The notes beneath the pieces were generated by a model. The model did not search any database. It worked only from the letters and a program-made list of their open reading frames with translations, and had not been told where the DNA came from. From a virus, in the IMG/VR virus record IMGVR_UViG_3300046777_001822, positions 1-23,375 of that record: 23,375 bases of DNA. One strand, 5' to 3'. Numbering within the stretch: the first letter of the stretch is position 1; the number at the start of each line of letters is the position of its first letter. Shown piece by piece: positions 2 through 17,162 of the stretch. Position numbers and translations under genes: made by a program.

Positions 2-352
2 ATTAACATTGTAAGAATAGATCCTAAACAATTAAATTTTACAATCAAAGAAGGTTTAGTTTTTCATGCACATACTGATTTGAATAGGAAAGCCGGAAAA
101 GTTATGCCATATTATACTTTTGTTATATATGTACAAATGCCAAACAACCTATCTGGGGATGACGGTGTTTTGTATCTAAAAGATAGTGATGGTAATATTT
201 TTACATTTCTTCCAGAAGAGGGTGATTGTATAATAATGGATGGGGATTTATTACATGTACCTGGGTATGCTAAAAATTCGAGTGTTGATAGGTTGGTGTT
301 GGCCGGTAATACCACATTTCAAAAAAGAAAGACTAACAAAACATTACTTTAA
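2..352 (+). CDS. 2OG-Fe(II) oxygenase, 5'-truncated by window edge
   Basis: The reading frame is open from base 2, so the gene starts upstream of the window; the first in-frame ATG (base 104) lies after catalytic residues and is not the start. Numbering from base 2, a 2-oxoglutarate/Fe(II) dioxygenase signature is visible: HxD iron ligands at H24/D26 (FHAHTD), a distal iron-binding H85 (LLHVPGY) and R97, the likely 2-oxoglutarate carboxylate ligand, 12 residues later. The segment between them has the alternating beta pattern of a double-stranded beta-helix (jelly roll). Enzymes of this fold hydroxylate proteins, nucleic acids or small molecules; the substrate here is unknown. The stop codon overlaps the next ATG by one base (TAATG), so it is probably translationally coupled to the sulfotransferase-like gene that follows. 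The family call is fairly sure from the ligand pattern; the N-terminus is not visible. Confidence 0.7.
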   Translation: MNIVRIDPKQLNFTIKEGLVFHAHTDLNRKAGKVMPYYTFVIYVQMPNNLSGDDGVLYLKDSDGNIFTFLPEEGDCIIMDGDLLHVPGYAKNSSVDRLVLAGNTTFQKRKTNKTLL

Positions 353-1059
353 TGTTAATTGAAGATAAATTCATATTTATTAATATTCCAAGATGTGCAT
401 CAACATCTTTCCATATATCCTGTATTAATTCGGGATTCGATGTGAAATATTACACAAACGATGAGATTTTTAGAAAAGTAAAGAAGTTTGAGGAAAACGA
501 TCATATACATACACATGAATCTATAAATGAATTGGAAGCCAAATTTGGGAACAAATATCCAATCATATCAATAAGAAGACAAAAGTATGAAAGGTTTTTT
601 TCGATGTGGAAACATGTGATTGGGGAAGCTTTAAGATATGGTGACAAAAAAAGCGCCAATGTATTTACAAAGTTAAAGGTAAACGATATATTGTATTATG
701 ATTCTGACGATGTGATCGATTCAAAAAACAGGCACAATTTCATTATGAAATTCCTTTTAAAAAATGGCTTATCTGTTGTTGAAGTTGATCAAAGGATATT
801 AACCATGTTAAATGTTTTAATTACCCCGACATCTCATTATCATAATAATAGGAGTGACATTATTTGGTTTAATTTTCAAGATCTAAATAATCTTGAAAAA
901 TGGGTACAAGAATTGGTGGGGAAACCGTTTAACTTACAAAACGTAAATTCCAGCAAAAATATTGATTGTGCGATTAAAATTAATGAGGACTTAATAAGGG
1001 AATATGATAGAATATATAGTGTTTTTGATAACCATAAAGAAACAAAAAGCATAATTTAA
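352..1059 (+). CDS. Sulfotransferase-like protein
   Basis: This 235-residue protein begins with a beta strand and a loop, IPRCASTSFH (residues 12-21). It resembles the 5'-phosphosulfate-binding P-loop of PAPS-dependent sulfotransferases (compare the PKTGGTS type of the Sulfotransfer_2 family). A second motif, RRQKYERFFSMW (75-86), fits the 3'-phosphate-binding element, a strand followed by R...R..S.W. The family moves a sulfuryl group from PAPS to hydroxyls of glycans, tyrosines or small molecules; the acceptor cannot be read here. The start is the ATG overlapping the stop of the preceding oxygenase gene. The leader has no Shine-Dalgarno. It is one of three sulfotransferase-like genes within 4.5 kb; the other two resemble each other more than this one. 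The C-terminal half is less recognisable. Confidence 0.65.
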   Translation: MLIEDKFIFINIPRCASTSFHISCINSGFDVKYYTNDEIFRKVKKFEENDHIHTHESINELEAKFGNKYPIISIRRQKYERFFSMWKHVIGEALRYGDKKSANVFTKLKVNDILYYDSDDVIDSKNRHNFIMKFLLKNGLSVVEVDQRILTMLNVLITPTSHYHNNRSDIIWFNFQDLNNLEKWVQELVGKPFNLQNVNSSKNIDCAIKINEDLIREYDRIYSVFDNHKETKSII

Positions 1060-1109: not shown

Positions 1110-2603
1110 ATGAAAGGTATAATACTCGGCAGTGATTTTATAGAAAAGGACAATTCTGTTAAAATTCTAGAAACTAACACAAATACTACATTTTTCAATG
1201 AAGGGTCCGAATTTTTGGATTATGACCCCTTATTTAACGTTTTTATACAAAATAACATAACGGAGCTTCATTTTATATATACTGTTGGTGATAGTTACTT
1301 ACCAACTAATGATCCAGTATTTGTGTTTGAGGAAATACTCAAGGAAAAATGTGATCAGAATAATATCCAATATTTTGCATATACTGTGCCAGAAAATTCA
1401 GTTACGGTGCCATACATTGAAGATGCCCCTAATAAATTTATTCTTAGACAGGCTTTCGACACAACAGCTTTGGTTGATGAAACCTACTGTGCAGATAAAT
1501 TCGAATTTTTAAAATTATTAGAAAATAGTAGTTTAACACCTAAGTCATATTTTAATGATCCTACTTTAGGAAGTAATGAATTATTGGAAATAACAGACAA
1601 TGGATCTGATGTTCCAAATATTCTTGTAAAATACAGATATCCGAATTATGACGGTAAAGAATATCCACAAATATATAATTTAACGAGTAATGAACAATTG
1701 GCAGAATTAAAAGCTGGTTTAGAAGAAGGTTATATTATTCAAGAATTTTTATACGATCAGGTTAATTTAGTACAAAATAGATGGTCTGTTATAAGATCAA
1801 TAGATATTATATATGGCTCAGAATTGGATGTTGTTAGTTTAGGTGGTTATAGAACAACAACAAATTTACCAATTGATTATTATGGTAATGAGTTCGTTTC
1901 TGGTACAAGAAAATATAATCAAAAAACTAGATATAAATTTATCAATAAACAAAACGGTAATTTTTACGACGTAACTTACCACGTTGATAACGATAGTAAT
2001 ATCATCATGTCAGATGGTACAACTCGAACACTTAACAATGTGGCAGTAAATGATACACTTAAATCTTTACAATTTACAGATTTAAACGGAATTGGGTCAT
2101 CACATGAAAACAATTTACAGTCATGGGATGGTACGTTTAATAAAACGGTTGAAACATTAACTGATGTTGACACAACTGCAGTATCTATTCATAGTAGTGA
2201 TATCAAAGCTTTATTTATTAAAGTTACGTTAGAGAATGGGACGACATGGTCAGATAGCCCATATTCAATATTTTATTTTGAAGAAAAAGATATTGAATCA
2301 ACTAGATGGGATTTATTAAACAAAATGGTAGTAGGTGATAAGTTTATCATTAGAAACAAAGTTACTGGAGAATTAAGTAAATTGGCAATCACTAATTTAG
2401 AAATAGAGTATATGGAAAAAACTGTATACGAATTAGATGTTGAACCTTCTGATGTTTTCTTATCTGATCTAGGTAATGATTTATATGCTATCATGCACAA
2501 CAATTGTGAAGGTTGTGGTAGCCCATGGGGGGGATTTTGTGGTAACTGGCAATGTTATCCGTATTGTGGATTCTGTGGCGGCGGTTCCCCAGCACAAAAA
2601 TAA
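1110..2603 (+). CDS. ATP-grasp-like protein with degenerate C-terminal Hint domain and Cys/Gly-rich tail
   Basis: This 497-residue protein has three parts. Residues 1-250 look ATP-grasp-like: KFILRQAF (109-116), ILVKYRYP (171-178), YIIQEFL (208-214) and RWSVIRSIDI (224-233) match the usual order of ATP-grasp strands and ligands. Residues about 286-465 look like a Hint domain: a block-A-like IIMSDGT (298-304) with VAVNDTLKS, a block-B-like KVTLENGTTW (371-380) with VVGDKFI (407-413), a block-F-like VYELDVEP (439-446) and a block-G-like MHNNC (462-466). The Cys normally expected about eight residues before the block-A Met is absent (Val292), and the block-B His is not evident, so full splicing is unlikely. 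C-terminal Asn cleavage at H463-N464 or N465/C466 remains conceivable. Residues 466-497 hold six Cys with many Gly and aromatics; only two other Cys occur in the protein. The leader has no Shine-Dalgarno. The Hint call is fairly firm; the ATP-grasp call is moderate. Confidence 0.6.
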   Translation: MKGIILGSDFIEKDNSVKILETNTNTTFFNEGSEFLDYDPLFNVFIQNNITELHFIYTVGDSYLPTNDPVFVFEEILKEKCDQNNIQYFAYTVPENSVTVPYIEDAPNKFILRQAFDTTALVDETYCADKFEFLKLLENSSLTPKSYFNDPTLGSNELLEITDNGSDVPNILVKYRYPNYDGKEYPQIYNLTSNEQLAELKAGLEEGYIIQEFLYDQVNLVQNRWSVIRSIDIIYGSELDVVSLGGYRTTTNLPIDYYGNEFVSGTRKYNQKTRYKFINKQNGNFYDVTYHVDNDSNIIMSDGTTRTLNNVAVNDTLKSLQFTDLNGIGSSHENNLQSWDGTFNKTVETLTDVDTTAVSIHSSDIKALFIKVTLENGTTWSDSPYSIFYFEEKDIESTRWDLLNKMVVGDKFIIRNKVTGELSKLAITNLEIEYMEKTVYELDVEPSDVFLSDLGNDLYAIMHNNCEGCGSPWGGFCGNWQCYPYCGFCGGGSPAQK

Positions 2604-2801: not shown

Positions 2802-3332
2802 ATGGAAATATTAATAATATCCTTACCAAGGACAGGATCAACCGAGTTATCTAAGAGAATATCCGAACAACAAAAATTGACTTTAATAGGAGAACCCTTT
2901 AATGATTTTTATCCTGAAAAACGTTATTATAATGAAAACCACATTTATAAAGATTGTGTGTTAAAAACAAATATTTTCCATAAACCATTTTTTATTAGAG
3001 AAGAAGATAGACTTGAATGGTTAATTAGCTTAAGTAAAAAATTTAATAAGACAATTCTTTTAAGTAGAAAAGATATTAAAGCCTGTGCCGAAAGCTGGGC
3101 TTTTTATAGTTTTAGGGTTAAAAACTTCAATTTCTCACACAACTTAGCATATTTTTGGGAAAAAACACCAAATTATGATGAATCAGTAAAAAAGATCAAT
3201 ACATGGAATGAAGAGATTAACTTTCTATCTAAAGAATTAAACATTCCCATCACTTATTATGAAGACAATTTTGATGTAAACTCGACAGAGCGATTAAGAA
3301 AGGGGGATTTGATTATTAATAAAATCATTTAA
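2802..3332 (+). CDS. Sulfotransferase-like protein
   Basis: This 176-residue protein opens with SLPRTGSTEL (residues 7-16), a good match to the 5'-phosphosulfate-binding loop (PR.GST.L) of PAPS-dependent sulfotransferases. EPF (31-33) follows and LLSRKDIKACAESWA (86-100) fits the 3'-phosphate-binding strand/helix with R, K and S in place. It is short for the family (often 230-350 residues) and lacks much of the usual C-terminal part, so it is a minimal or divergent member. It shares the R-T-G-S-T loop, the EPF motif and the RKD....ES pattern with the gene at 3862-4509, suggesting these two are related by duplication. The acceptor substrate is unknown. It lies four bases upstream of a prolyl-hydroxylase-like gene, so the two are probably co-expressed. 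Confidence 0.7.
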   Translation: MEILIISLPRTGSTELSKRISEQQKLTLIGEPFNDFYPEKRYYNENHIYKDCVLKTNIFHKPFFIREEDRLEWLISLSKKFNKTILLSRKDIKACAESWAFYSFRVKNFNFSHNLAYFWEKTPNYDESVKKINTWNEEINFLSKELNIPITYYEDNFDVNSTERLRKGDLIINKII

Positions 3333-3336
3333 ATTA

Positions 3337-3855
3337 ATGTTAAAACAAAAGATTTTATTCACCGAAGAGGAGTGTAAAAATATTATAGATTTAAAAAACA
3401 AATATCCGTTGATAGGTGATAATGGTAGATGGGATGAGTTTGACAATTTCAAATACAAGTTTTACACTTTAAACGAAGCTGCAGATGTTAATTGGATAAT
3501 AAATAGAATGTGTGATTTTTTCGAAGATGAAATGAAATTACATATTTACACTAGACCCATAAAACTTAGTTTACATCATTATACACCTGGCGATGAATTT
3601 GGTAAACATATAGATACCGGAACCCCAATTAAAGAATGGAATGTTGGGTTATGCCTAAATGACAACTTTGATGGTGGTGATTATTTACTATATGATGAAA
3701 ATGACAACCCGATTGAGATAGCTAAAAAAACTGGAAATGTGTCCATATATCAATCTCAAGTTTTTCATCAAGTGACCCCTATTATTTCTGGTGAGAGATG
3801 GGCTATCGCAATGTTTATTCATAAGTTTAGAATGAATAAAAAACCAATTTTTTAA
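3337..3855 (+). CDS. Prolyl-4-hydroxylase-type 2OG-Fe(II) oxygenase
   Basis: This 172-residue protein shows the full set of residues for an Fe(II)/2-oxoglutarate dioxygenase: HID (H91, D93) in GDEFGKHIDTG, distal H144 in QVFHQVTPI, and R154 ten residues later in SGERWAIAMFIH. The preceding LHHYTPGDEFG and following FDGGDYLLY segments are typical of the P4Hc/PKHD family. That family hydroxylates prolines or other residues in proteins, though phage members rarely have known substrates. The length fits a single jelly-roll catalytic domain with no extra domains. It sits between two sulfotransferase-like genes with 4- and 6-base gaps, as if the enzymes were co-expressed. The family call is strong; the target (fibre protein, host protein or a small molecule) is open. 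Confidence 0.85.
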   Translation: MLKQKILFTEEECKNIIDLKNKYPLIGDNGRWDEFDNFKYKFYTLNEAADVNWIINRMCDFFEDEMKLHIYTRPIKLSLHHYTPGDEFGKHIDTGTPIKEWNVGLCLNDNFDGGDYLLYDENDNPIEIAKKTGNVSIYQSQVFHQVTPIISGERWAIAMFIHKFRMNKKPIF

Positions 3856-3861
3856 TTATAT

Positions 3862-4509
3862 ATGAGAATAGCGATACTAACAAGTGAACGAACCGGGTCC
3901 ACAACTCTTTTTCATTTAATACGAGAGCATCTAGAACCGAGTGGATATATATGCCACATCGAACCATTCAACCAATATTTACATGAAAAACTAAACAGAA
4001 ATGTTTACAGTCCGGATTTTTATAATGATAAGAACAATGTTTTTATAAAAACATTTCTTAGTGAAATTCATAGACCAAAAGAACTAATAGGTAATGACGA
4101 GGCATATTGGGATTGGTTTTTTAAATATTTTGAAAAAATCATAATTTTAGATAGGAAAGATAAAACCTCACAAAGTGAGAGTTTTACATATCACGCAATT
4201 AAAGGTAAAACAAGTACTTGGCATAAAAGACAATACTATGATTTTGATGGTATTGAAGAGGGGCACGTTGAGTATAGAAAAAATATATTTAATGAAGAAT
4301 CTAAGAAATTACATGAGATATCTGATAGGGGTTACCCAATAGTATATTTTGAGGATATATATGTAAATAGGGATAAAACAACACTTAAAGATATTTTAGA
4401 TTATATTGGTGTGGACCTAAACGATACCTTATATGAAAGATATATTTTATCCGATTCATTTAGAGTAAGACTAAACAAAGGGGAATCTCCATTCACAGGA
4501 ATAATTTAA
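3862..4509 (+). CDS. Sulfotransferase-like protein
   Basis: This 215-residue protein has SERTGSTTLF (residues 8-17), a 5'-phosphosulfate-binding loop, then IEPFNQYL (33-40) and IILDRKDKTSQSESF (94-108), the 3'-phosphate-binding element with R, K and S. The same three motifs in the same order occur in the gene at 2802-3332, and the general fold (strand, P-loop, helix, conserved EPF) matches Sulfotransfer-family proteins. The extra C-terminal segment (VYFEDIYVNRDKTTLKDILD) is like the late helix-loop seen in bacterial sulfotransferases, where a short strand ending in ED precedes a helix. It would transfer sulfate from PAPS to an unknown acceptor. The start ATG lies six bases after the oxygenase stop; the leader is AT-only. 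Confidence 0.7.
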   Translation: MRIAILTSERTGSTTLFHLIREHLEPSGYICHIEPFNQYLHEKLNRNVYSPDFYNDKNNVFIKTFLSEIHRPKELIGNDEAYWDWFFKYFEKIIILDRKDKTSQSESFTYHAIKGKTSTWHKRQYYDFDGIEEGHVEYRKNIFNEESKKLHEISDRGYPIVYFEDIYVNRDKTTLKDILDYIGVDLNDTLYERYILSDSFRVRLNKGESPFTGII

Positions 4510-4585: not shown

Positions 4586-7500
4586 ATGAATATTTTTGAT
4601 CCACAAGTATCGGGTTCCCTGTCAGTTTCGGGCTCAAGCGAAATTTCGGGCGATTTAAGAGTCTTAGGTACCTTATTTGCAACAATTTCAGGTACTGCCG
4701 AAAATGCCGTTTCAACCTCACACGCTGCAGCATATACCCTAACATCAAGTTTTCACCAATTTACCTCATCTTACACTACCGGAGCGTTTACGGGTTCTTT
4801 TGGTGGAAATGGTGCTGGGTTATATGACATCCCGGCTAGTGGTGTTACGGGACTTAATTTAACCAGAATTGCTGATGGTTCTGCTACGGCATCCATTTCT
4901 CAAGCTGATGGTCTTAGAATTAACACCAACACAGAACTAACCGGATCATTGAAAATATCAAATATTAACCTTGGTTCTGATAAGGTTATATTGGTAAACG
5001 TAACGGATTCTGGTGGAAAATACTTTATTGATGGGGTAAGAAGCCCAATTTTAAGTCTAATAAAAGGATTTACATATAAATTCTTATTTCCAAATATAGG
5101 GGCGCATCCTTTTAGATTCTCTACAACAAATGATGGAACACATAATGGTGGAACGGTTTATACAACAGGTGTAACCACAGGTTCAACACCAGATTACATT
5201 CAAATTGAAGTAACTGATAGTACACCATCTACACTTTATTATTTCTGTACTTCACATCATATGATGGGTAATGGTATTGGGGTATATTCGGATCTTTTAA
5301 ATGTTGAAGCGGATAGACAAGTTGTTTACATCAACCCATCTATAATTGCAACAACAGGTTCAAATACGTTTATCGGTACTGAAACAATAAGTGGGTCTCT
5401 TTCTGTTACTGGATCGGTTAATATAACAGGATCTATTTCATTAAATGGTCAGGCTATTGGTACTGGTAAATTAGATGAGGTTGTGTTCAATAGTTACACA
5501 TCATCCAATGACACAACAAACAGTCTACAAAACGGTAGATTAGATTTGTTGGAAACGTCGACATCATCGTTAAATACATTTACATCCAGTACAAATAATA
5601 GGTTAAACACTGTTGAAACATATACTGGAAGTTTAAATACCAGATTAGATATTATTGAAACTTCAACAAGTAGTTTAAATACATTTTCATCTAGTATAAA
5701 TAATAGAGTTGGTATTATTGAAACTTCAACAGCTAGTTTAAATATTTTTACCTCAAGTGCAAGTAGTAGATTATTATCAATCGAAACAAGCACTGCTAGT
5801 TTAAACATATTTACTTCAAGTACGAATAATAAACTATCTGCAATAGAATCAACAACTTCAAGTTTGAATTCGTATACCGCTAGTAACAATACTAGATTAG
5901 ATGTTATAGAAGGAACTACAGGTAGTTTAAATACATTTACTTCAAGCACAAGCAACAAATTAAGTGCAATTGAAACTTCAACTAGCAGCTTAAATTTATT
6001 TACATCAAGCACTAATTTAAGTTTAAATTCTGTTCTTACTAGTACAGCTAGTTTAAACACATATACAAGTAGTAATAATACTAATATTAATGCTATTCAT
6101 ACTGCAACAAGTAGTTTGAATACTTTTAGTTCGTCAATATTAAATGCTATCGAGGTTACCGGATCTAACTTAACAATTAAGGGTGATTTATTAGTTAAAG
6201 GTACAACGACACAAATTGATTCTACTACTCTTAACATTGGTGATAATATTATATCATTAAATGGTACTGCAACAAATAATGCTGGCCTTGTTGTTCAAGA
6301 CGCTAGTGGTGCAAGTATCGTTTCAGGTTCATTATTATGGGACACATCAACAGACTTTTGGAAGGCTGGTAAATTAGGTAGTGAAGAAAGAATTATATTA
6401 GTTAATGAATATAATACATTCTCAACTTCAATAGATTCTAGAGCGACTAGTTTACAAACTGCAACTAGTTCTTTAAATTCATATACAAGTAGCAATACTA
6501 GTAACATAAATGCAATTCACACTTCAACAAGTAGTTTGAATACATTTACATCTAGTGCTAACGGTAGATTAGATTCTTTAGAAACAAGCACAGGTAGTTT
6601 AAACACTTACACTAGTTCAACAAATACGAGATTAGGTGTGATCGAATCTACAACAGGTAGTTTAAATACATTTACTTCCAGTGCAGATAGTCGTTTAAAT
6701 GCTGTTGAGACTTCAACTAGTAGTTTGAATACTTTTAGTTCTAGTACAAATGATAAATTATCTTCTTTAGAATCTGCTAGTTCAAGTATTAGAACGGATT
6801 TTAATTCATATACGAGTTCAAATAATACTGTTGAGTCTACACAAAATGGTAGACTAAGTGCGTTAGAAACTACAACAGGTAGTTTGAACACATATACAAG
6901 CAGTAACACAACAAATATAAATGCAATTCATACCGCAACAAGTAGCCTTAATAGTTTTACTAGTTCTATTAATACAACTGTTAAAAATAAACTAAATGCT
7001 GATGGTGTAATATCCGGAAGCATTCAAGTTGAGATTACTGGAACTACAGGTTACTCAACATTTAGTGGATCTATAGCTACAACAGATTCAACACAAAACG
7101 ATAGAATTGCCGCATTAGAATCAATGACTGGTTCTTATGCAACAACTGGTTCAAGTAATATTGTTGGTAATCAAACAATTACAGGTTCTGTTTATATTAC
7201 ACAAAACTTAACTGTTCTTGGATCGTCATCTTTCCTTTATTTAACAGCATCACAATTGGCTGTTAGTTCGTCAACAATATCAGTTAATGTTTTCGAACCA
7301 GCTGAAAGATTTGGGGGATTAAAAGTATATGATAGTGGTTCATTATCACATCAAGCAACAGCATCACTTTTATGGGATTCACAAAATAATCACTGGATAT
7401 ATCAAAACGCATACGTTGGTGGATATTCAGGTGGTATGTTAATTTCAGGCCCAAGAAATACTGGAGCGTTAGGTGATGAGGCTGGTACTATAGCCAACGT

Positions 7501-10500
7501 TGTAATGAAAGGACAAGGTGGTGATCATATCACGGGTTCCAACATTACAGATACTGGTACAAAAGTTTCAATTAATTCAAATACTGAAGTAACTGGAACT
7601 TTAAAGGTTACTGAAAATATAACTAGTCCTAATATAACTGCAATAGAAACATCTACTAGCAGTTTAAATACATTTTCATCATCTATATTAGCTGCTGTAG
7701 AATTAACAGGTTCTAACCTAACAGTTAAAGGTAACTTATTAGTTAAGGGAACAACAACAAATGTTAATACAACAACACTTGATGTTGATAATAACTTAAT
7801 TAACTTAAACGGAACAGGAGCAACACTTGCTGGTTTAAGAGTTAAAGATACAACAGCACCAAATCAAGTTTCGGGATCTTTATTATGGGATGCAACAAAT
7901 GACTATTGGATTGCGGGTCAATTAGGTTCAGAACAAAGATTAGTTAGAGAAACAGAATTTAATAATGCTGTAAATAGAGTTGATAGTTTAGAGATCTCAA
8001 CAGCATCTTTAAATACATTTACAAGTAGTGCTGCAAGTAGATTATCTTCACTTGAAACTGCAAGTGGTAGTATTAGAACTGACTTTAATTCATATACAAG
8101 TAGTAACAACACAACAAACAATACACAAAACAGTAGATTAACTTCTATTGAATCAACAACTGGATCATTAAATACATATACTAGTTCAAATACAACTAAT
8201 ATAAATGCTATTCATACTGCAACAAGTAGTTTGAATAGTTACACAAGTAGTAACAATACTACTATATCTTCTTTAAACTCATATACAAGTAGTAACACAA
8301 CAAATATAAATGCTATTCATACCGCAACGGGTAGTTTGAATTCATTCACAAATTCATTTAATAGTGCATTTAGTTTAAGTGGTGCTGATGTTACTGTTAG
8401 AGGTAACTTTACAGTATCGGGTACAACAACTACTGTTAATTCAACAACGGTTGCAATAGGTGATAACATCATTCAATTAAATGGTTCTGGTGCAACTAAC
8501 GCAGGTATTGTTGTTAGAGACGCAACATCACCAACAACAACATCTGGTTCATTATTATGGGATACAACAAATGATAAATGGATTGCTGGCCCCTTAGGTG
8601 CTGAAGATGATGTTGTTTTAAGAACCGCAACACAAACATTAACAAATAAAACAATCAACGCATCTCAACTAGTTGATGCGTCTGTAACAAATACAAAATT
8701 AGCCAATTCATCTTTTAATATTGGTACAACATCTATATCATTAGGTAGAACATCGTCTGCACAAACTTTAAGTGGTGTGTCGATTGATGGAACTGTAACC
8801 AAAACATTGGCATCTGGTGTTGGAGAAAATTTCTTATATGCAAATGTTGGTTCGGATGATTATGTTCGTGTTCGAGGAGGTTCAGATAGCTATAATACAG
8901 GATGGATTGAAATCGCTACATCAGATGATGGAACAGAACCAATTTATGTTAGACAATATACAGGAGTGTTTACAACTGTTGCAAGAACCGCAACTTTATT
9001 AGACGGTAGTGGTAACACATCTTTCCCTGGTACTATAAATGGTTTAACAGTGTCTTCAGGTACTATTACTTCAGGCACTTGGAATGGTACAGCAATTGCC
9101 AACGCATACTTAGCAAACTCATCGTTTTTTGTTGGTACAACATCTATATCATTAGGTAGATCGTCCGCATCACAAACATTAACAGGTGTTTCTATTGATG
9201 GTAATGCAGGAACTGTTACAAATGGTGTTTATACAAGTGGTGATCAAACAATTGGGGGGGCAAAAACATTTAGTTCAAATATTACCAATAGTGCAACTGC
9301 TGATTGGTATATGTATGGCTTTGGTGCTAGAGGCGCAAGCTCAGGACAATATGGTATGGGTCTTGCATCTGATATTGCAAATAGAACATTATCATTCCAT
9401 GTACCTAATCATACTGCTTATTCATCTTCAGGCGCCGTACCTAAATTTGGTTGGTACTCTAATGGGGCTGTTGAGTTAATGTCATTACAAAGTGCCACAG
9501 GTAATTTAGTTGTTACAGGAACAATTGCAGCATCTAATTTAAGTGGTACAAATACTGGAGATCAAACAACTATTTCGGGTAATGCTGGAAGTGCAACGAT
9601 ATTACAAACAGCTAGAACAATAGGCGGCGTTTCATTTAATGGTTCGGCAAATATCGATTTACCTGGTGTAAACACCTCAGGTAATCAAAATACAACTGGT
9701 AATGCCAACACAGCAACAACATTACAAACTGCAAGAACAATTGGTGGTGTTTCATTTAATGGTTCTGCAAATATTGATTTACCAGGCGTAAACACTACTG
9801 GTAATCAAAATACATCAGGTACGGCATCTAATATTACTGCTTTCACAATTAACCAAAACGTTGGTACAGCAAATACACCAACATTTGCTGGATTAACAGT
9901 TGGTGCTGGTCTTGCAACAGGAAGAAGTTCTTGGGGGGCACCCACTAATGCTAATATTATATTAACATCATCTGCATCAGATAGTACTGGTAACTGTGGT
10001 ATAGAATTCAGATCGGGAAATAATTTCCCATCAGATGGTGCATCGATATATTTTGAAAATAATGCATCAGGTGGTGCATCCGAAAGAGCTAAATTAACAA
10101 TTAGAGTTGAGAATGATGCGGAGGACTTTATGGAATTAAGAGCGGGTAATATCACTCTTAATTCGAATACCATAAGTGCTGGTGGTCAAAACCCATCAAT
10201 TATTTTCCAAAATTCTGGAACAACTATCTCATCTATTAGTAGTACTGGTGTTTACAATGGTAGTATTAGTGGTAATGCAGCAACAGTAACAAATGGTGTA
10301 TATACAAATGGTTCATATTCTGATCCTTCTTGGATAACATTATTAGCGGGCTCAAAGATAAATGGCGCAGTTGCAAGTGCTACAAACGCAACAGCTGCGG
10401 CTAACATTTCACTTACAAGTTTAGGAAATGGTTCGGTAAACGTAAATAACGGAAGTTCAGCGGTATATAGAAATGAAAACGGGTCGGGTGCGGCTTTATC

Positions 10501-11200
10501 ATATTCTCCAGTTTTTCATGCGGGCGCCGGTGATACGATGTGGCAAATTCAAGGTACTTACGGTACTTCCGGTAACGGTACATTCTATTTTAGACAAGGA
10601 TATAATGGAAGCTGGGGTAACTGGTTAACAATGTTATCATCAGCTAACTATAATTCATATTCACCAACATTAACAGGAACTGGTGCAAGCGGTAACTGGG
10701 GTATTAATATTACAGGTAATGCTGCAACAGCAACATCGGCTGACCAAATTGATGGTGTTGGATTTAGAAATACAGGTTCTAATGAGGGTGTTAATGCCCA
10801 ATCATTAGACTCTAATGGTATGACCTACGTAACCAATGTTGATGGTAGTAGTACCAATTTAACAGGTAACGCAACAGATGGTGCACTGTACTCTCAAATA
10901 TACAGTTCAAGTTGGCAACATCAAATATATGGTGATTACAGAACAGGTATCATGTATGCTAGAGGAAAAAACAACGGTACTTGGCAGTCTTGGAAGAGAG
11001 TTGCTTTAAGTAATTCAACAACATTCTCCAACGTGTCAAGTGTTAGCTTTACTCACAATTTAGGAACTGCAAACTTAACTGCGCAAGTATTTGATAGTAG
11101 TAATAATATGTTCTTCCCTTCTGAAATAAACATAACATCTACAACAGTTACAGTAACTTTTGCAGCAAATAGAACAGGTAGACTTGTTGTTACCGGATAA
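4586..11200 (+). CDS. Giant modular tail-fibre protein (2204 aa)
   Basis: This is a very long Ser/Thr/Asn/Gly-rich virion protein, most likely a trimeric side tail fibre. Residues 8-16 (VSGSLSVSG) match the same positions of the three following genes. Residues 60-80 carry the fibre motif AFTGSFGGNGAGL. Residues about 133-235 resemble a cupredoxin domain. Three arrays of 21-residue coiled-coil units (5552-6157, 6455-6985, 7991-8377) alternate with copies of a globular domain ending in SGSLLWD...W.AG.LG. The part from about 8640 has TLTNKTI, ANSSF..GTTSISLG repeats and GNA.T repeats typical of phage fibres. Near the C-terminus two knob-like segments, YNGSWGNWLTML and ARGKNNGTWQSWKRV, resemble the pyocin-knob family, which often contacts receptors. 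A final beta-rich segment (11010-11197) ends in RTGRLVVTG. The start is the only sensible ATG and the frame is unbroken. Structural role is sure; the receptor is unknown. Confidence 0.9.
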   Translation: MNIFDPQVSGSLSVSGSSEISGDLRVLGTLFATISGTAENAVSTSHAAAYTLTSSFHQFTSSYTTGAFTGSFGGNGAGLYDIPASGVTGLNLTRIADGSATASISQADGLRINTNTELTGSLKISNINLGSDKVILVNVTDSGGKYFIDGVRSPILSLIKGFTYKFLFPNIGAHPFRFSTTNDGTHNGGTVYTTGVTTGSTPDYIQIEVTDSTPSTLYYFCTSHHMMGNGIGVYSDLLNVEADRQVVYINPSIIATTGSNTFIGTETISGSLSVTGSVNITGSISLNGQAIGTGKLDEVVFNSYTSSNDTTNSLQNGRLDLLETSTSSLNTFTSSTNNRLNTVETYTGSLNTRLDIIETSTSSLNTFSSSINNRVGIIETSTASLNIFTSSASSRLLSIETSTASLNIFTSSTNNKLSAIESTTSSLNSYTASNNTRLDVIEGTTGSLNTFTSSTSNKLSAIETSTSSLNLFTSSTNLSLNSVLTSTASLNTYTSSNNTNINAIHTATSSLNTFSSSILNAIEVTGSNLTIKGDLLVKGTTTQIDSTTLNIGDNIISLNGTATNNAGLVVQDASGASIVSGSLLWDTSTDFWKAGKLGSEERIILVNEYNTFSTSIDSRATSLQTATSSLNSYTSSNTSNINAIHTSTSSLNTFTSSANGRLDSLETSTGSLNTYTSSTNTRLGVIESTTGSLNTFTSSADSRLNAVETSTSSLNTFSSSTNDKLSSLESASSSIRTDFNSYTSSNNTVESTQNGRLSALETTTGSLNTYTSSNTTNINAIHTATSSLNSFTSSINTTVKNKLNADGVISGSIQVEITGTTGYSTFSGSIATTDSTQNDRIAALESMTGSYATTGSSNIVGNQTITGSVYITQNLTVLGSSSFLYLTASQLAVSSSTISVNVFEPAERFGGLKVYDSGSLSHQATASLLWDSQNNHWIYQNAYVGGYSGGMLISGPRNTGALGDEAGTIANVVMKGQGGDHITGSNITDTGTKVSINSNTEVTGTLKVTENITSPNITAIETSTSSLNTFSSSILAAVELTGSNLTVKGNLLVKGTTTNVNTTTLDVDNNLINLNGTGATLAGLRVKDTTAPNQVSGSLLWDATNDYWIAGQLGSEQRLVRETEFNNAVNRVDSLEISTASLNTFTSSAASRLSSLETASGSIRTDFNSYTSSNNTTNNTQNSRLTSIESTTGSLNTYTSSNTTNINAIHTATSSLNSYTSSNNTTISSLNSYTSSNTTNINAIHTATGSLNSFTNSFNSAFSLSGADVTVRGNFTVSGTTTTVNSTTVAIGDNIIQLNGSGATNAGIVVRDATSPTTTSGSLLWDTTNDKWIAGPLGAEDDVVLRTATQTLTNKTINASQLVDASVTNTKLANSSFNIGTTSISLGRTSSAQTLSGVSIDGTVTKTLASGVGENFLYANVGSDDYVRVRGGSDSYNTGWIEIATSDDGTEPIYVRQYTGVFTTVARTATLLDGSGNTSFPGTINGLTVSSGTITSGTWNGTAIANAYLANSSFFVGTTSISLGRSSASQTLTGVSIDGNAGTVTNGVYTSGDQTIGGAKTFSSNITNSATADWYMYGFGARGASSGQYGMGLASDIANRTLSFHVPNHTAYSSSGAVPKFGWYSNGAVELMSLQSATGNLVVTGTIAASNLSGTNTGDQTTISGNAGSATILQTARTIGGVSFNGSANIDLPGVNTSGNQNTTGNANTATTLQTARTIGGVSFNGSANIDLPGVNTTGNQNTSGTASNITAFTINQNVGTANTPTFAGLTVGAGLATGRSSWGAPTNANIILTSSASDSTGNCGIEFRSGNNFPSDGASIYFENNASGGASERAKLTIRVENDAEDFMELRAGNITLNSNTISAGGQNPSIIFQNSGTTISSISSTGVYNGSISGNAATVTNGVYTNGSYSDPSWITLLAGSKINGAVASATNATAAANISLTSLGNGSVNVNNGSSAVYRNENGSGAALSYSPVFHAGAGDTMWQIQGTYGTSGNGTFYFRQGYNGSWGNWLTMLSSANYNSYSPTLTGTGASGNWGINITGNAATATSADQIDGVGFRNTGSNEGVNAQSLDSNGMTYVTNVDGSSTNLTGNATDGALYSQIYSSSWQHQIYGDYRTGIMYARGKNNGTWQSWKRVALSNSTTFSNVSSVSFTHNLGTANLTAQVFDSSNNMFFPSEINITSTTVTVTFAANRTGRLVVTG
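4982..5290 (+). other. Cupredoxin-like domain inside the fibre gene
   Basis: Residues about 133-235 of the giant fibre form a segment unlike the surrounding low-complexity repeats: richer in aromatic residues and without Ser/Thr runs. GFTYKFLF is followed by AHPFRFSTT (H174) and, 47 residues on, LYYFCTSHHMMG (C221, H224, M226/M227). This His ... Cys-x2-His-x-Met order is the type 1 copper ligand pattern of cupredoxins, and the HPFRFSTTNDGTHNGG stretch resembles cupredoxin-like segments found in other environmental proteins. It may bind copper or be only a beta-sandwich spacer; the ligand set being complete favours binding, but this is inference. Confidence 0.55.
5552..6157 (+). repeat. Coiled-coil repeat array 1 (21-residue units)
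   Basis: The pattern is E-T-S-T-S-S-L-N-T-F-T-S-S-x4-L-x2-I. There is one 21-residue unit (5552-5614), one 14-residue unit (5615-5656), seven 21-residue units (5657-6097) and a final 20-residue unit (6098-6157). Leu7, Leu18 and Ile/Val21 fall on heptad a/d positions with Thr in the rest of the core, as in trimeric fibre coiled coils. Codons differ between units while residues are kept, so the array is not a recent exact expansion. Confidence 0.85.
6182..6388 (+). repeat. Globular fibre domain, copy 1
   Basis: Encodes about 69 residues running from GDLLVKGTTTQIDSTTLNIG to SGSLLWDTSTDFWKAGKLGS. The same domain recurs at 7730-7933 and 8402-8608, and in a diverged form at about 7202-7415, always placed next to a coiled-coil array. 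It is probably a small beta-rich domain interrupting the shaft. Confidence 0.8.
6455..6985 (+). repeat. Coiled-coil repeat array 2
   Basis: Five 21-residue units (6455-6769) are followed by one 32-residue unit containing SIRTDFNSYTSSNN (6770-6865), one 21-residue unit (6866-6928) and a partial unit. The 32-residue unit is 21 plus 11 residues, which would introduce a hendecad, a known way to alter supercoil locally without breaking the core. Confidence 0.8.
7202..7415 (+). repeat. Globular fibre domain, diverged copy
   Basis: The segment QNLTVLGSSSFLYLTASQLA through ATASLLWDSQNNHWIYQN keeps the G-x-L-x-V-x-G start and the SLLWD.....W end of the repeated globular domain, but the middle has diverged. 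It is followed by a Gly-rich stretch rather than the usual LGSE. Confidence 0.6.
7730..7933 (+). repeat. Globular fibre domain, copy 2
   Basis: Encodes GNLLVKGTTTNVNTTTLDVD to SGSLLWDATNDYWIAGQLGS. It is close to copy 1 in residues but differs at many third codon positions, implying an old duplication held by selection on the protein. Confidence 0.8.
7991..8377 (+). repeat. Coiled-coil repeat array 3
   Basis: The unit lengths in order are 21 (7991-8053), 32 with SIRTDFNSYTSSNN (8054-8149), 21 (8150-8212), 35 (8213-8317, five heptads) and a terminal 20-residue unit ahead of globular copy 3. The 32-residue unit is the same variant as in array 2, so the two arrays share a larger order. Confidence 0.8.
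8402..8608 (+). repeat. Globular fibre domain, copy 3
   Basis: Encodes GNFTVSGTTTTVNSTTVAIG to SGSLLWDTTNDKWIAGPLGA. It marks the end of the coiled-coil half of the fibre; after it the protein changes to TLTNKTI and ANSSF-type fibre repeats. Confidence 0.8.
8701..9201 (+). repeat. Two ANSSF-GTTSISLG fibre repeats
   Basis: Copies at 8701-8792 and 9111-9201 encode ANSSF..GTTSISLGR.S..QTL.GVSIDG. They share a 27-base identical core reading ggtacaacatctatatcatt plus the following aggtaga. This short beta repeat is common in distal parts of phage tail fibres. Confidence 0.75.
9601..9840 (+). repeat. Tandem 120-base duplication in fibre gene
   Basis: The 40-residue unit starting LQTARTIGGVSFNGSANIDL occurs twice in direct tandem (9601-9720 and 9721-9840). 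Most residues are kept with scattered silent changes; the end of the second copy has drifted (TSGTASNI). It is probably a beta-helical or beta-rich shaft element. Confidence 0.8.
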
Positions 11201-11217
11201 AATACGTATATTAAAGT

Positions 11218-12351
11218 ATGTTAAGAGAAAATGTAATTGTTAGTGGCTCATTAGATGTTAGTGGACAATATATTATACCCAGAGGACCCAGAGCCAATAG
11301 ACCAGGAAGCCCAGAAATTGGGTCTCTTTATCTTGAAGAATCTGATAGTGGAAGTTTTGTTGTAACATATACCGCAGTATCTAATAGAGATGATGGATGG
11401 GAACCAGTTGGTTCACAAAACACGGATAGAATTGGTTTTTTATATAGACAAATTATTAATTATTCTTATTTGGCTGGTGGTTATAAAGATGCATCTCCTT
11501 GGAAAAATGTTCATAGAACAACAAATGCAACGGATCAAACTGTTCACTTAGGAGAATTGATGGATTATCCAGCATCATATACATCTGGTCATTGTAGTAA
11601 AACTATTTTATTTGTTTGGTCAACAAATACAGATGGCGCCTGGAAATCGGCAACACAAATACATTCAACTTGGACAACAGGGGTAAATATGGTAAATGAA
11701 ACGGCTTATGCTCACCAATCTAAATGGGATTTAGCAAATGCAAGAGATGACTTAGGAACTTTATTTCAAGAAACAGAATTTGCTTGGGTATTTGGGGGAG
11801 GTGTTGCAACTGTTGAAAAATTCAATTCAACCAACGAAGTTATGTATAGTGTTTATTACCCTAATATGGCACCATATCTAACATTAAAAACATCTATCAC
11901 CAGTTCATTAGGTTGTTCTGGGTTTTCTGATGAAAATTATGGTTATGGTTATGGATCGGAAAGTGGTAACAAACTATTCTTTGCAACTGATACCTTCACT
12001 AATAATCAACAATGGGGGGCCAGTGGGCAACAAAAGGGAATTAGTTCCAAGTGGGGTAAAGGATATGCGGGAAATGAGGGTAATTATAATGGTGGTTATA
12101 ACTTAAGAAGATGGAATGTGTTTAATGAAACAAATATTGGTAATGTGGCAAAACCACATGGAAACTGTGGTGAAGAAAATTTCACCATGGGACAAGACCA
12201 CCAATATATGTTAGGAAATTATGATGGTCTACAAAATAATACAAGTTGGAAATTTGTCTATGCAACTGACACTGGTGTTGTTAACCCTTCTGGGTTGGCA
12301 CCAGGCGTTAATGGTGGAACATCATCGGGGCATTGTGGGTGGAGAAATTAA
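11218..12351 (+). CDS. Tail fibre/adhesin paralog 1 (377 aa)
   Basis: This is the first of three tandem paralogs directly downstream of the giant fibre (17-base gap). Residues 8-16 are VSGSLDVSG, then a conserved stretch RANRPGSPEIGSLYLEES and DDGWEPVGSQ. The middle (about 85-275) has SYLAGGYKDASPWKNVH, TSGHCSKTILFVWS and QETEFAWVFGGG, with repeated aromatic strand patterns that may form a beta-propeller- or kelch-like fold. The C-terminus is strongly conserved among the paralogs: GISSKWGKGYAGNEG, GGYNLRRW, NCGEENFTMGQDHQYMLGNY and SSGHCGWR, with conserved Cys that may pair. This copy is the most divergent of the three in the middle. It is a virion receptor-binding or decoration protein by context; the exact location on the particle is unknown. 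Confidence 0.7.
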   Translation: MLRENVIVSGSLDVSGQYIIPRGPRANRPGSPEIGSLYLEESDSGSFVVTYTAVSNRDDGWEPVGSQNTDRIGFLYRQIINYSYLAGGYKDASPWKNVHRTTNATDQTVHLGELMDYPASYTSGHCSKTILFVWSTNTDGAWKSATQIHSTWTTGVNMVNETAYAHQSKWDLANARDDLGTLFQETEFAWVFGGGVATVEKFNSTNEVMYSVYYPNMAPYLTLKTSITSSLGCSGFSDENYGYGYGSESGNKLFFATDTFTNNQQWGASGQQKGISSKWGKGYAGNEGNYNGGYNLRRWNVFNETNIGNVAKPHGNCGEENFTMGQDHQYMLGNYDGLQNNTSWKFVYATDTGVVNPSGLAPGVNGGTSSGHCGWRN

Positions 12352-12355
12352 AAAA

Positions 12356-12368
12356 CTATTTATAGAAT
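12356..12368 (+). promoter_or_regulatory. CTATTTATAG element before paralog 2
   Basis: CTATTTATAG at 12356-12365 ends three bases before the ATG of the second paralog. It matches the CTATTTATA before the ATP-grasp/Hint gene. It lies too close to the start for an ordinary leader if it were a promoter core, so it could instead be a translation leader element or coincidence. Confidence 0.2.
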
Positions 12369-13475
12369 ATGCGTCACGATAATATAGAAATTAGTGGTTC
12401 TTTAAGAGTTCAGGGAGTTTCAAAACCACCCAGAGGCTCAAAAGCAAATAGACCTGGGAGCCCAGTTACGGGATCATTATATCTTGAAGAGGCAGCAAGT
12501 GGTAGTTTTTTAATGGTATATACTGGTTTAAATAATGGGGATAATGGGTGGGTTAGAGTTTCTTCCCAAGTTAACTCAAATGTTGGTTTTAAATTTAGAC
12601 AAATAATTAGTGTTTCCTATTTAGCTGGTGGTTACAAAAACTCATCACCATGGAAGAATGTTCATAAAACAATTAATTCTACTGATCAAACAACACATAT
12701 TGGTGAACTATTAGATTACGCTGCATCATATACTTCGGGGGCTTGTAGTAAATATATCTTTTTTGTTTGGTCCGTTAATGAAGATAATGCATTTAAAGGA
12801 CCAACTGATGTTAATGGTATTAGAACATCTGCAATTAATATGGCAAACGATACCAAATATACACATCAAACTAAGTTTAACATAACGACTGCAAGGAGTG
12901 ATGTTGCTACCATGCATAAAGAAACAGAATTTGCATACATGTTTTCTGCCGGTAGTTCTATTGTTGATAAATTTGATTTAAGTAATGAAACAATTATGAC
13001 TGGGTTCAATTTAACAACAATAAATGGTAGTGATGGTGGTAGTGCATTTTCTGATGAGAACTTTGGATACGGTTGGACATCTAGCGAAGGTATCAAGTTT
13101 AGTTTTGCATCTGAAACATTTTCATCATCTGTTCATTGGTCAGCACACGCGCAACAAAAAGGGATTAGCTCAAAAGTTGGTAAAGGATATGCGGGAAATG
13201 AAGGGTCATATAGTGGTGGATATAACTTAAGAAGATGGAGCAATGCTAGCGACACTAATATTGGTAATGTGGCAAAACCACATCCAAACTGTGGAGAAGA
13301 AAATTTCACAATGGGTCAGGATCATCAATATATGTTAGGTAATTATGATGGTGCACAAAATAATACAAGTTGGAAATTCAGCTACACAACGGATACAGGA
13401 ACTACCAGCGTAAGTGGATTAGCACCCGGCGTTAACGGTGGAACATCTTCTGGCCATTGTGGTTGGAGAGCATAA
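12369..13475 (+). CDS. Tail fibre/adhesin paralog 2 (368 aa)
   Basis: Second copy of the family. Residues 8-16 are ISGSLRVQG, followed by PPRGSKANRPGSPVTGSLYL and a DNGWVRVSSQ segment. Central landmarks are SYLAGGYKNSSPWKNVHKT, TSGACSKYIFFVWSVNED and KETEFAYMFSAG. The C-terminal third is close to paralog 3 (GISSKVGKGYAGNEGSY, GGYNLRRWSN, KPHPNCGEENFTMGQD, SSGHCGWRA). Differences between the copies cluster in the central part, consistent with receptor-facing variation, while the ends are kept for assembly. No signal peptide or membrane segment is present. The ATG is preceded by A/T-only bases without Shine-Dalgarno, 17 bases after the previous stop. Confidence 0.7.
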   Translation: MRHDNIEISGSLRVQGVSKPPRGSKANRPGSPVTGSLYLEEAASGSFLMVYTGLNNGDNGWVRVSSQVNSNVGFKFRQIISVSYLAGGYKNSSPWKNVHKTINSTDQTTHIGELLDYAASYTSGACSKYIFFVWSVNEDNAFKGPTDVNGIRTSAINMANDTKYTHQTKFNITTARSDVATMHKETEFAYMFSAGSSIVDKFDLSNETIMTGFNLTTINGSDGGSAFSDENFGYGWTSSEGIKFSFASETFSSSVHWSAHAQQKGISSKVGKGYAGNEGSYSGGYNLRRWSNASDTNIGNVAKPHPNCGEENFTMGQDHQYMLGNYDGAQNNTSWKFSYTTDTGTTSVSGLAPGVNGGTSSGHCGWRA

Positions 13476-13477
13476 AT

Positions 13478-13485
13478 TATAAATA
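13478..13485 (+). promoter_or_regulatory. TATAAATA element before paralog 3
   Basis: TATAAATA, identical to the T4 late promoter core, lies two bases upstream of the ATG of paralog 3. A transcript initiated here would start at or inside the gene, so a promoter role for this gene is doubtful; it may be chance in A/T-rich DNA. Confidence 0.2.
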
Positions 13486-13487
13486 AA

Positions 13488-14600
13488 ATGTTATACGAGA
13501 ATTTAGAAGTAAGTGGTAGTTTAAGATCAGATAGGGTAATTAATAGACCTCCAAGAGGCACTAGAGCAAATAGACCATCAAGTCCTCGTTCAGGTTCATT
13601 ATACCTTGAAACATCAAGTAGTGGAAGTAGTTATTTGATGTTGTATACTGGTGTATCAAACATTGATGACGGTTGGGAAAGAATCGCTGCACAAGAAACA
13701 CAACCTACCGCATTTAGATATAGACAAGTAATTAATTATTCTTATTTGGCTGGTGGTTATAAAGACTCGTCACCTTGGAGAAATGTTCACAAGACAGTTA
13801 ATCTTATTGATCAAACAACACACATTGGTGAACTATTAGATTACCCAATTTCATATACATCCGGAGCGTGTAGTAAATCGATACTTTTTCTTTGGTCTGT
13901 AAATGATGACGGGGCGTGGAAAAGTGCCGGAACAATACATGGAACGAGAACAGCTGCTATCAATATGATTACGGACACAAATTACGCACACCAAACAAAA
14001 TTCAACACTGGTATTGCTAGAAGTGATCTTGGAACTATGCAAAAAGAAACTGAGATAGCATATTTGTTTTCTGGCGGATCAACAACGATTGAAAAATTTA
14101 ATTTATCGAATGAAAGCTATGTAAGTGGATTTGGGGTTTCATCAATTAGTGGCGACGATGGTGCTGGAGCATTTTTTGATGAAAGTTTTGGTTACGCTTG
14201 GACATCATCTGCTGGTATTAAATTTAATTTTTCCAATGAAACACCTAGTTCATCTAGTCAATGGGGTAACCATTCACAACAAAAGGGGATTAGCTCAAAA
14301 GTTGGTAAGGGGTATGCTGGAAATGAGGGAAGTTATAATGGTGGTTATAATTTAAGAAGATGGAGCAATTCTAATGATACTAATATCGGGAATGTTTCAA
14401 AACCGCATCCAAACTGTGGGGAAGAAAACTTTACATTAGGTCAAGATTGGCAATATATGTTAGGAAATTATGATGGGGTACAGAACAATGTTAGTTGGAA
14501 GTTTTGGTATGCAACGGATGTTGGCTCAACTAGTATTACCGGATTAAACCCTGGTGTTAATGCAGGAACGTCTTCTGGCCATTGTGGTTGGAGACAATAG
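13488..14600 (+). CDS. Tail fibre/adhesin paralog 3 (370 aa)
   Basis: Third copy of the family. Residues 8-12 are VSGSL, as in the other fibres, but the following residues (RSDRV) depart from the S/D-V-S-G pattern. PPRGTRANRPSSPRSGSLYL then follows. The centre has SYLAGGYKDSSPWRNVHKT and TSGACSKSILFLWSVNDD. The C-terminal part keeps GISSKVGKGYAGNEGSY, NCGEENFTLGQDWQYMLGNY (with Trp where the others have His) and SSGHCGWRQ. It is closer to paralog 2 than to paralog 1, suggesting two successive duplications, possibly with gene conversion at the C-terminal end. It is the last gene of the fibre module. By context it is a virion adhesin or fibre-tip protein. Confidence 0.7.
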   Translation: MLYENLEVSGSLRSDRVINRPPRGTRANRPSSPRSGSLYLETSSSGSSYLMLYTGVSNIDDGWERIAAQETQPTAFRYRQVINYSYLAGGYKDSSPWRNVHKTVNLIDQTTHIGELLDYPISYTSGACSKSILFLWSVNDDGAWKSAGTIHGTRTAAINMITDTNYAHQTKFNTGIARSDLGTMQKETEIAYLFSGGSTTIEKFNLSNESYVSGFGVSSISGDDGAGAFFDESFGYAWTSSAGIKFNFSNETPSSSSQWGNHSQQKGISSKVGKGYAGNEGSYNGGYNLRRWSNSNDTNIGNVSKPHPNCGEENFTLGQDWQYMLGNYDGVQNNVSWKFWYATDVGSTSITGLNPGVNAGTSSGHCGWRQ

Positions 14601-16160: not shown

Positions 16161-17162
16161 ATGAATTTAGCAATTAATGGGACATGCGCTAAAGGTTGTT
16201 CATTTTGTTTCACTAAAGAAGATGCAAGATTAAAACACACATTAGGTGACATGTCATTAGAAATGGTTGATAAAATTATCAACCATTATCATTTAGATAT
16301 GCCTCAAGAGGAAATAACAATTCTTGGTGGTGAACCAACACAACATCCTAATTTTATTGGTATTCTTGATCATATCTTTTCAAAGAATATAAAGGTAAAT
16401 TTAGTTAGTAATTTCTTATTCAGTAAAACAACAAGGGATTATCTAATAGAAAATATCAAGAATATTCGATGGGTGTTCCCCAATGCAGCAGAACTTAATG
16501 AAAAAAATAGAATAGTTTTATTTAAAAAGAACTATTTGGAAATTTACAAGGCTTATGCTAATACCTGGGGGTTTGATACTAACCCAAGGCTTTATTTAGC
16601 TGTAACGATGTCTAAAGACTGGAAGGATAGAAACTTCTACGAATACATCAAATGGTTATACCACGAGCTAGATGGTAAAATAAATGCAATTAGGGTCGGT
16701 TTAGACCTTACAGGGACTTATCTTATCAATAATAAGGAAATGGGTGCGGAGATCACTAAGATCCTTAAATTCGGCTTATATAACGGTATTAAGATTACTT
16801 CAGATTGTCAAGTTCCACCTTGTTTATGGGAAGGGAAGACAAAGAAAGCTGTTTTAGAGAATTCTTTGAATTTTGCTACCTTTAAGATCCCCGAATATGA
16901 TACCATATGTGGATTTATGCCATTGGACGTTTTCCCAGACGGAAGTTCAATTCATTGTTATCCACTACAGGATAAAGTAAAGATTGATAATGTTTTGGAA
17001 ATATCAGCTAAAAGTGGTATATTAGATTTAAGGGACGAGTTTGATAAACTTTATATTGCAAATCATAAAAATTATACCGTACCACAAGACTGTTTAGATT
17101 GTGTCTTTTATAAGGGCGATTGTAATGGTATATGTGGTGGATGTCTAGAAGGTAACAAATAA
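16161..17162 (+). CDS. Radical SAM/SPASM-type enzyme
   Basis: This 333-residue protein has the radical SAM CxxxCxxC cluster very near the N-terminus (C9, C13, C16 in NGTCAKGCSFCF) and the SAM-contact motif LGGEPTQHP (55-63). A C-terminal Cys-rich region matches the SPASM layout closely: C250-x10-G-x4-C266, then C311-x2-C314-x6-C321-x3-C325-x2-C328. SPASM proteins carry extra 4Fe-4S clusters and most known ones modify ribosomal peptides or proteins (anSME, sactipeptide and PQQ-type maturases). Some act on other substrates, and the substrate here is unknown. The near N-terminal cluster means the enzyme is compact, lacking a leader-peptide-binding (RRE) domain. Its stop overlaps the next gene (TAATG), linking it to the U32-like protein. 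Family call is strong. Confidence 0.88.
   Translation: MNLAINGTCAKGCSFCFTKEDARLKHTLGDMSLEMVDKIINHYHLDMPQEEITILGGEPTQHPNFIGILDHIFSKNIKVNLVSNFLFSKTTRDYLIENIKNIRWVFPNAAELNEKNRIVLFKKNYLEIYKAYANTWGFDTNPRLYLAVTMSKDWKDRNFYEYIKWLYHELDGKINAIRVGLDLTGTYLINNKEMGAEITKILKFGLYNGIKITSDCQVPPCLWEGKTKKAVLENSLNFATFKIPEYDTICGFMPLDVFPDGSSIHCYPLQDKVKIDNVLEISAKSGILDLRDEFDKLYIANHKNYTVPQDCLDCVFYKGDCNGICGGCLEGNK

Follow-up and report, generated by a model that had tools for sequence, protein, structure and literature searches.

The stretch of DNA analysed here, referred to as the window, is 23,375 bases of a virus record. At positions 1110-2603 on the plus strand it contains an open reading frame for a 497 amino acid protein, made up, from N-terminus to C-terminus, of a glutathione-synthetase-like ATP-grasp domain, a degenerate Hint domain, and a tail with six Cys (Table 1). 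An earlier note on this DNA described the open reading frame and the blocks IIMSDGT, VVGDKFI, VYELDVEP, and MHNNC within it, and all are found as described. The protein is called the hub here, being the putative centre of a phage biosynthetic cassette. Tailoring enzymes that share a C-terminal tag are encoded beside it, in agreement with the phage setting with modifying enzymes proposed in that note.

Table 1. Features of the hub and of the neighbouring cassette genes, in window positions.
Feature	Position	Strand	Remarks
2OG-Fe(II) oxygenase-like, 5' part outside the window	2..352	+	Tagged, ends TNKTLL
Sulfotransferase-like	352..1059	+	Tagged, ends ETKSII; PHROG galactose-3-O-sulfotransferase, E 6e-6
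ATP-grasp domain of the hub	1110..1955	+	Residues 1-282; glutathione-synthetase-like motif order
Degenerate Hint domain of the hub	1980..2501	+	Residues 291-464; no Cys1, no block-B His
His291 codon at the catalytic Cys1 position	1980..1982	+	Structural alignment; invariant in 50/50
His463-Asn464, predicted cleavage after Asn464	2496..2501	+	Zero entropy, 67 relatives
Six-Cys Gly/aromatic-rich tail, candidate released peptide	2502..2600	+	Residues 465-497, pLDDT <50
Small conserved protein, 52 amino acids	2627..2785	+	Directly after the hub; ends KEKHLS
Sulfotransferase-like P-loop protein	2802..3332	+	Tagged, ends LIINKII
2OG-Fe(II) oxygenase	3337..3855	+	Variant tag with Phe as the last residue (NKKPIF); Pfam E 5e-11
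Sulfotransferase-like	3862..4509	+	Tagged, ends SPFTGII

Elsewhere in the window, a fibre-like protein of 2204 amino acids is followed by three tandem paralogues of ~370 amino acids each (11218-14600), the first of which matches PHROG 1417; all three end with the motif GTSSGHCGWR. The radical SAM gene at 16161-17162 is weakly like the prokaryotic viperins, at scores far below cut-off (PADLOC pVip E 2e-10, NCBIfam E 4e-8). A 591 amino acid protein with a Bacteroidota-style signal peptide and the look of a TonB-type outer-membrane receptor is encoded at 18919-20694, with no Pfam match, and after it comes a DUF401/citrate-transporter-like permease (20697-21704, E 2e-9).

The N-terminal DFIEKDNSVKILETNTNT of the hub carries the E-x-N pair of the ATP-grasp domain (E21 and N23); the usual position of this pair in ATP-grasp enzymes is late. 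The suggestion that the protein starts as an ATP-grasp-like enzyme is borne out by the predicted fold. Residues 1-282, modelled alone with AlphaFold2, have a pLDDT of 86, and the ATP-grasp fold is recognized by Foldseek with an E-value of 1e-5. In VIA comparisons of these residues the Z scores are 9.8 for yeast glutathione synthase (1m0w), 9.6 for YgiC (7uk8), and 9.1 for human GSS (2hgs). The best 26 VIA rows are ligases of the glutathione, glutathionylspermidine, and trypanothione synthetase type, followed by TTL, RimK, LysX/ArgX, and Ddl. The hub has its fold in common with glutathione synthetase, glutathionylspermidine synthetase, YgiC, RimK, TTL, and LysX/ArgX, and its order of motifs with the first of these, keeping the acidic, Asn, Lys, and Arg positions. 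Residues E21, N23, R113, K130, K174, E212, R229, and D232 are invariant in all 50 of the aligned members; their catalytic, metal, and ATP-ligand roles are assigned by conserved position, not from a solved complex. This part of the hub is probably an active carboxylate-amine ligase. Unlike the known ATP-grasp ligases, it is fused to a Hint domain and a peptide and is without a sequence match in the PDB, even by profile. A profile search of PDB sequences found no match for either the ATP-grasp or the Hint domain, thus the folds of the hub rest on predicted structure.

The Hint domain that the earlier note had placed in the C-terminal part of the protein is modelled with confidence at residues ~287-467 by AlphaFold2, using 50 family members. 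Foldseek matches to it are the hedgehog autoprocessing domain (1at0, E 3e-8), BIL domains, and inteins (RecA intein 2in0, TMt 0.81), and VIA aligns hub residues 291 to 464 on intein residues 1 to the last Asn, with a Z of 16.6 to BIL 6y75. Where the note saw Val at the block-A Cys site, structural alignment places His291, which is present in 50 out of 50 aligned members. Its observation that block B lacks His is correct: Thr and His are both absent, and the window has S383 and S386. In the aligned members, C, A, S, or T occurs at position B:10 and A, S, T, or L at B:7. All 50 have Asp448 where block F would usually have His, and block-F position 4 is likewise lost in the aligned Hint domains. 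The roles of these Hint and intein residues are taken from the summary in PMC4031507.

Since Cys1 and block B have been lost in every aligned member, it would be the C-terminal chemistry alone that remains. The Hint is predicted to be inactive on its N-terminal side and to have kept the His-Asn that Asn cyclization needs. Conservation of this pair among homologues was checked by alignment: His463-Asn464 is present without exception in 67 of 67 full-length relatives (zero entropy) and in 13 of 13 members of the superfamily that were aligned, with identities as low as 21%, the penultimate His being lost in a few wider relatives (SANAP, SYNSP, and TSNSP). Residue 465 varies freely in the same 67 relatives, with 2.1 bits and S, G, T, A, P, and others represented. 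The constraint ends exactly after Asn464, which is the pattern expected for a cut there without splicing, as no +1 nucleophile would be needed. This break in conservation fits cleavage, short of proof. The chain would most likely be cut after Asn464, freeing a peptide of 33 residues with six Cys. Class 3 intein chemistry is ruled out for the window hub, as its Hint domain has no Cys. Type A BIL domains and inteins share the fold (Z ~16) and the terminal His-Asn with the hub, and the +1 residue of the BILs need not be a nucleophile, as in the hub. Unlike them, the hub has His in place of Cys1 (50/50), has no block-B His, is predicted to keep the C-terminal chemistry only, and interrupts no host gene.

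The earlier note counted 32 residues after HNNC with six of the eight Cys of the protein; the Cys count stands, and the tail after His463-Asn464 has 33 residues (465-497). The tail Cys include C466 of HNNC, and the other two Cys of the hub are C81 and C127. Among the 67 full-length relatives, C466, C477-G478, C486, and C489 are invariant, with a spacing of approximately C-x-C-x4-CG-x2-C-x4-C-x2-C, so that conservation of the tail Cys pattern in homologues holds as a peptide-like module. This conservation is far beyond chance. In the distinct tails, Cys makes up 21% of the residues, Gly 13%, Trp 10%, and Tyr 9%; charged residues are few, and the majority of the tails finish with K-[LIV]. The model has no confident structure from residue 467 on. 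No positive selection on the tail was seen; synonymous and other changes are both high there, possibly through recombination.

Six spaced Cys would also suit a metal-binding or disulfide module, which counts against release. It is possible, if rather doubtful, that the Hint is an inert scaffold, that the tail is a metal-binding or disulfide-rich domain of a protein with a structural or assembly role, and that the enzymes decorate a tail fibre or surface glycan, for example. Most of the Hint assisting residues are gone, and purifying selection acts on the tail (dN/dS ~0.19). A long fibre gene adjoins the cassette (4586-11200 in the window; 16 loci), and an S74-like chaperone domain comes after the Cys module of the L077 hub (5001-6695), albeit at E 0.02, below cut-off. 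APS kinase, which is untagged, is often near (21 of 81 loci) and would suit sulfation of any acceptor. Against this, invariance of the His-Asn would be needless in an inert domain, particularly while the next residue drifts, and three relatives have an intact Hint, predicted to be self-cutting, directly after the tail.

In these three hubs (L069, L073, and L080), the tail continues into a second Hint in which Cys1, the block-B His, and HN are all intact, matching Pfam PT-HINT or Intein_splicing with a best E of 4e-14. The Cys module is therefore between two Hints, which fits a releasable peptide. Within one such protein, hhalign of the degenerate against the intact Hint was not significant. 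SICLOPPS is an engineered intein-peptide-intein order for making cyclic peptides. In the same way, the three relatives have a peptide between a Hint predicted to be able to cut C-terminally and a Hint with an intact Cys1. Unlike in SICLOPPS, both Hint folds are complete and neither is a split half; the order is absent from most hubs, including that of the window, and the resemblance is one of the order of parts, with no sign of cyclization.

A search with the second Hint uncovered a wider superfamily with a similar ATP-grasp start, a degenerate first Hint mostly ending HN, and then between one and three intact Hints, with 0 to ~30 linker residues from one to the next, VHNK being the commonest end. 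Examples are L182-L211 and L262-L340 (e.g. L198:3618-6356 and L187:2694-5408), and up to four Hint folds occur in single proteins with almost no extein between them. Three hubs of the second-Hint type (L282, L283, and L285) end in HNRGIPKL or similar; as a PK[LI] end is common to these and to the Cys-tail hubs, the hub may have a C-terminal motif of its own.

Searches of Pfam, PHROGs, NCBIfam, and PADLOC gave no match to the hub, the sole intein-like hint being from NCBIfam at E 0.12. The hub has no match in 50,697 phage records. In IMG/VR, 84 relatives were identified by a simple search and 132 by a profile search, typically with 43-55% identity over the whole length, and a profile of the wide family reaches 202 contigs. 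The cultured phages have no match to this wide family outside the Hint part. The close family is not found in bacterial genomes (84,980 species genomes); in the same collection the wide family has one weak match with 27% identity, on a short contig (L261) of a euryarchaeal metagenome bin. The L261 relative is a truncated ATP-grasp part, and the contig is perhaps viral. All relatives of the hub are metagenomic in origin. The signal-peptide style in the window suggests Bacteroidota as the putative host.

Cassette enzymes identified by Pfam include a Trp halogenase (2e-87), 2OG oxygenases, radical SAM/SPASM, SET, and methyltransferase proteins. Tailoring enzymes are encoded beside a ribosomal peptide, the arrangement that marks a RiPP cluster. 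A tagged Cys-rich protein of 95 amino acids is present in 67 of 81 loci. The hub, which is single-copy, and the small protein after it are the constant members of the cassette, and neither is tagged. The small protein is usually 41-50 amino acids (~46) with a KHL or KHS-type end in most members. It is present at every locus in one set of hub loci and at 30 out of 30 and 43 out of 46 wider-family loci.

This constancy could mean that the small protein is a carrier, with the ATP-grasp domain ligating a building block to its C-terminus, the tagged enzymes acting on the bound group in a manner like LysW/ArgX, and the hub tail serving assembly or regulation. The small protein directly follows the hub in nearly every member, also in those without the Cys peptide, its C-terminal end is conserved, and among the structural matches of the ATP-grasp fold are ligases that work on C-terminal carboxylates, such as LysX/ArgX, RimK, and TTL. 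Such a role is nonetheless improbable, in that the small protein has no obvious carrier-like acidic C-terminus and the role of the Hint would be left unexplained.

The tag has the consensus K-x-x-K-[TS]-L-I, and most neighbouring open reading frames of the hub end in K-[ST]-[LI]-[LI]. Two Leu/Ile terminate 460 of the 728 distinct open reading frame ends from the window and 80 related loci, compared to 3.0% of internal dipeptides. The sulfotransferase-like families are tagged in 73/73 and 78/79 cases, the 2OG oxygenase families in 137/147 and 57/61, the halogenase in 41/43, and SGNH in 59/64; methyltransferases are also among the tagged kinds. The tag is absent from APS kinase (0/21), nucleotidyltransferase (0/25), and other families (0). 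In one phage of 287 kb, two terminal Leu/Ile are found for 13 of 14 cassette genes versus 14 of 296 elsewhere (P 9e-15), and in another of 237 kb for only 6 of 234 open reading frames outside the first 20 kb. All 19 complete radical SAM proteins in the cassettes of other members carry the tag. The radical SAM gene of the window (16161-17162), which the earlier note had tentatively linked to the hub, is untagged (it ends LEGNK) and is located beyond the tail-fibre genes; being untagged, its link to the hub is rejected. At the level of sequence, the tag and its confinement to the cassette can be regarded as established.

A DNA signal, such as a late promoter or an overlapping start codon, was considered and rejected. 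The tag is kept in 86 of 99 cases where the next gene is >20 nt away, Leu and Ile are encoded by many codons, and, outside overlaps, Ile codon usage is close to background. Since neither codons nor stops are fixed and the tag persists at a distance from the next gene, selection is on the protein. The tag might then be a degradation or timing signal for a host protease, the hub being functionally separate. It consists of basic residues and two aliphatics at a free C-terminus, and a basic-hydrophobic C-terminus is what ClpX reads in MuA. This is very unlikely, as only cassette enzymes have the tag, with genes of the same phage and even of the same region lacking it (APS kinase, nucleotidyltransferase, and, among tagged genes, the helicase gene of L111). 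The last residue of the tag also changes with hub lineage. In the three second-Hint lineages it is usually Phe instead of Ile/Leu, and F/M/V is found at the end in 7 of 10 compared to 8 of 611, the sequences being related rather than independent. A shift with hub lineage across unrelated enzyme families is as expected for a common receptor.

KxxK[ST]LI would thus be an address tag, most likely docking the enzymes to a common receptor that may be the hub or the adjoining small protein; the tag is most likely read by one or other of these two, as they are the untagged constants. The composition of the tail plausibly suits a Trp halogenase, 2OG oxygenases, radical SAM, sulfotransferases, and a SET methyltransferase. 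In the window lineage the tail is the best candidate for the substrate, because the enzymes suit its residues and, in other lineages, self-cutting domains lie on either side of it. The Cys/Trp/Tyr/Gly-rich peptide would be modified by the docked enzymes and then released. The full model, in which tagged enzymes at a common receptor modify a peptide, probably the hub tail, and Asn cyclization then releases it, is given a probability of about 0.4; its cleavage, its docking at a receptor, and its substrate are what we infer.

Several observations weigh against parts of this model. The block-F His, which aids Asn cyclization, is Asp448, and a few wider relatives have lost the penultimate His, both of which argue against release. 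Wider relatives have tagged enzymes and no Cys peptide, thus the peptide is not the substrate in all members, and there the enzymes either have a different substrate or act elsewhere. The WxWxIP motif is present in 11 of 43 halogenase relatives, and its absence from many of them is counted against the full model.

RiPP clusters are comparable in that there too a short Cys/aromatic-rich peptide ends a larger protein near halogenase, radical SAM/SPASM, oxygenase, and methyltransferase genes. Borosins are enzyme-core fusions among these clusters. Unlike in RiPP clusters, release of the hub peptide would be by a Hint in place of a protease, and the C-termini of the enzymes carry a shared recognition-like motif. 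In the most specific form of the proposal, which is rather unlikely as a whole, this would be an inverted RiPP-like system. The tag of a dozen or so unrelated enzymes would be read by the self-processing ATP-grasp/Hint hub or its small partner, the peptide would be displayed, modified, and released by Asn cyclization, and a second Hint would excise or cyclize it in some lineages.

Genes for 2OG oxygenases and tryptophan halogenase are present in T4-like marine phages, including HTVC008M and cyanophages (PMC3037559). HTVC008M has a homologous halogenase (36% identity) and 2OG oxygenases, as does the cassette; unlike their cassette homologues, the HTVC008M proteins checked have no C-terminal tag, and no hub was found in the phage collection. 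A full-text search of the open-licence literature found no paper combining ATP-grasp, Hint domain, and phage. The domains are known singly. For the whole, a hub with a near-constant small partner and unrelated enzymes bearing the same tag, no described counterpart was found.

Hundreds of contigs from uncultured phages contain the hub system, which is absent from the cultured phage collection. The cassette suggests that viruses have a so far unknown means of bringing enzymes together at a single protein or peptide. Should the tag prove to be an address, it would amount to a transferable code by which enzymes are assembled on a target. Release of the peptide, if it occurs, would let these phages make modified peptides without the need of a protease.
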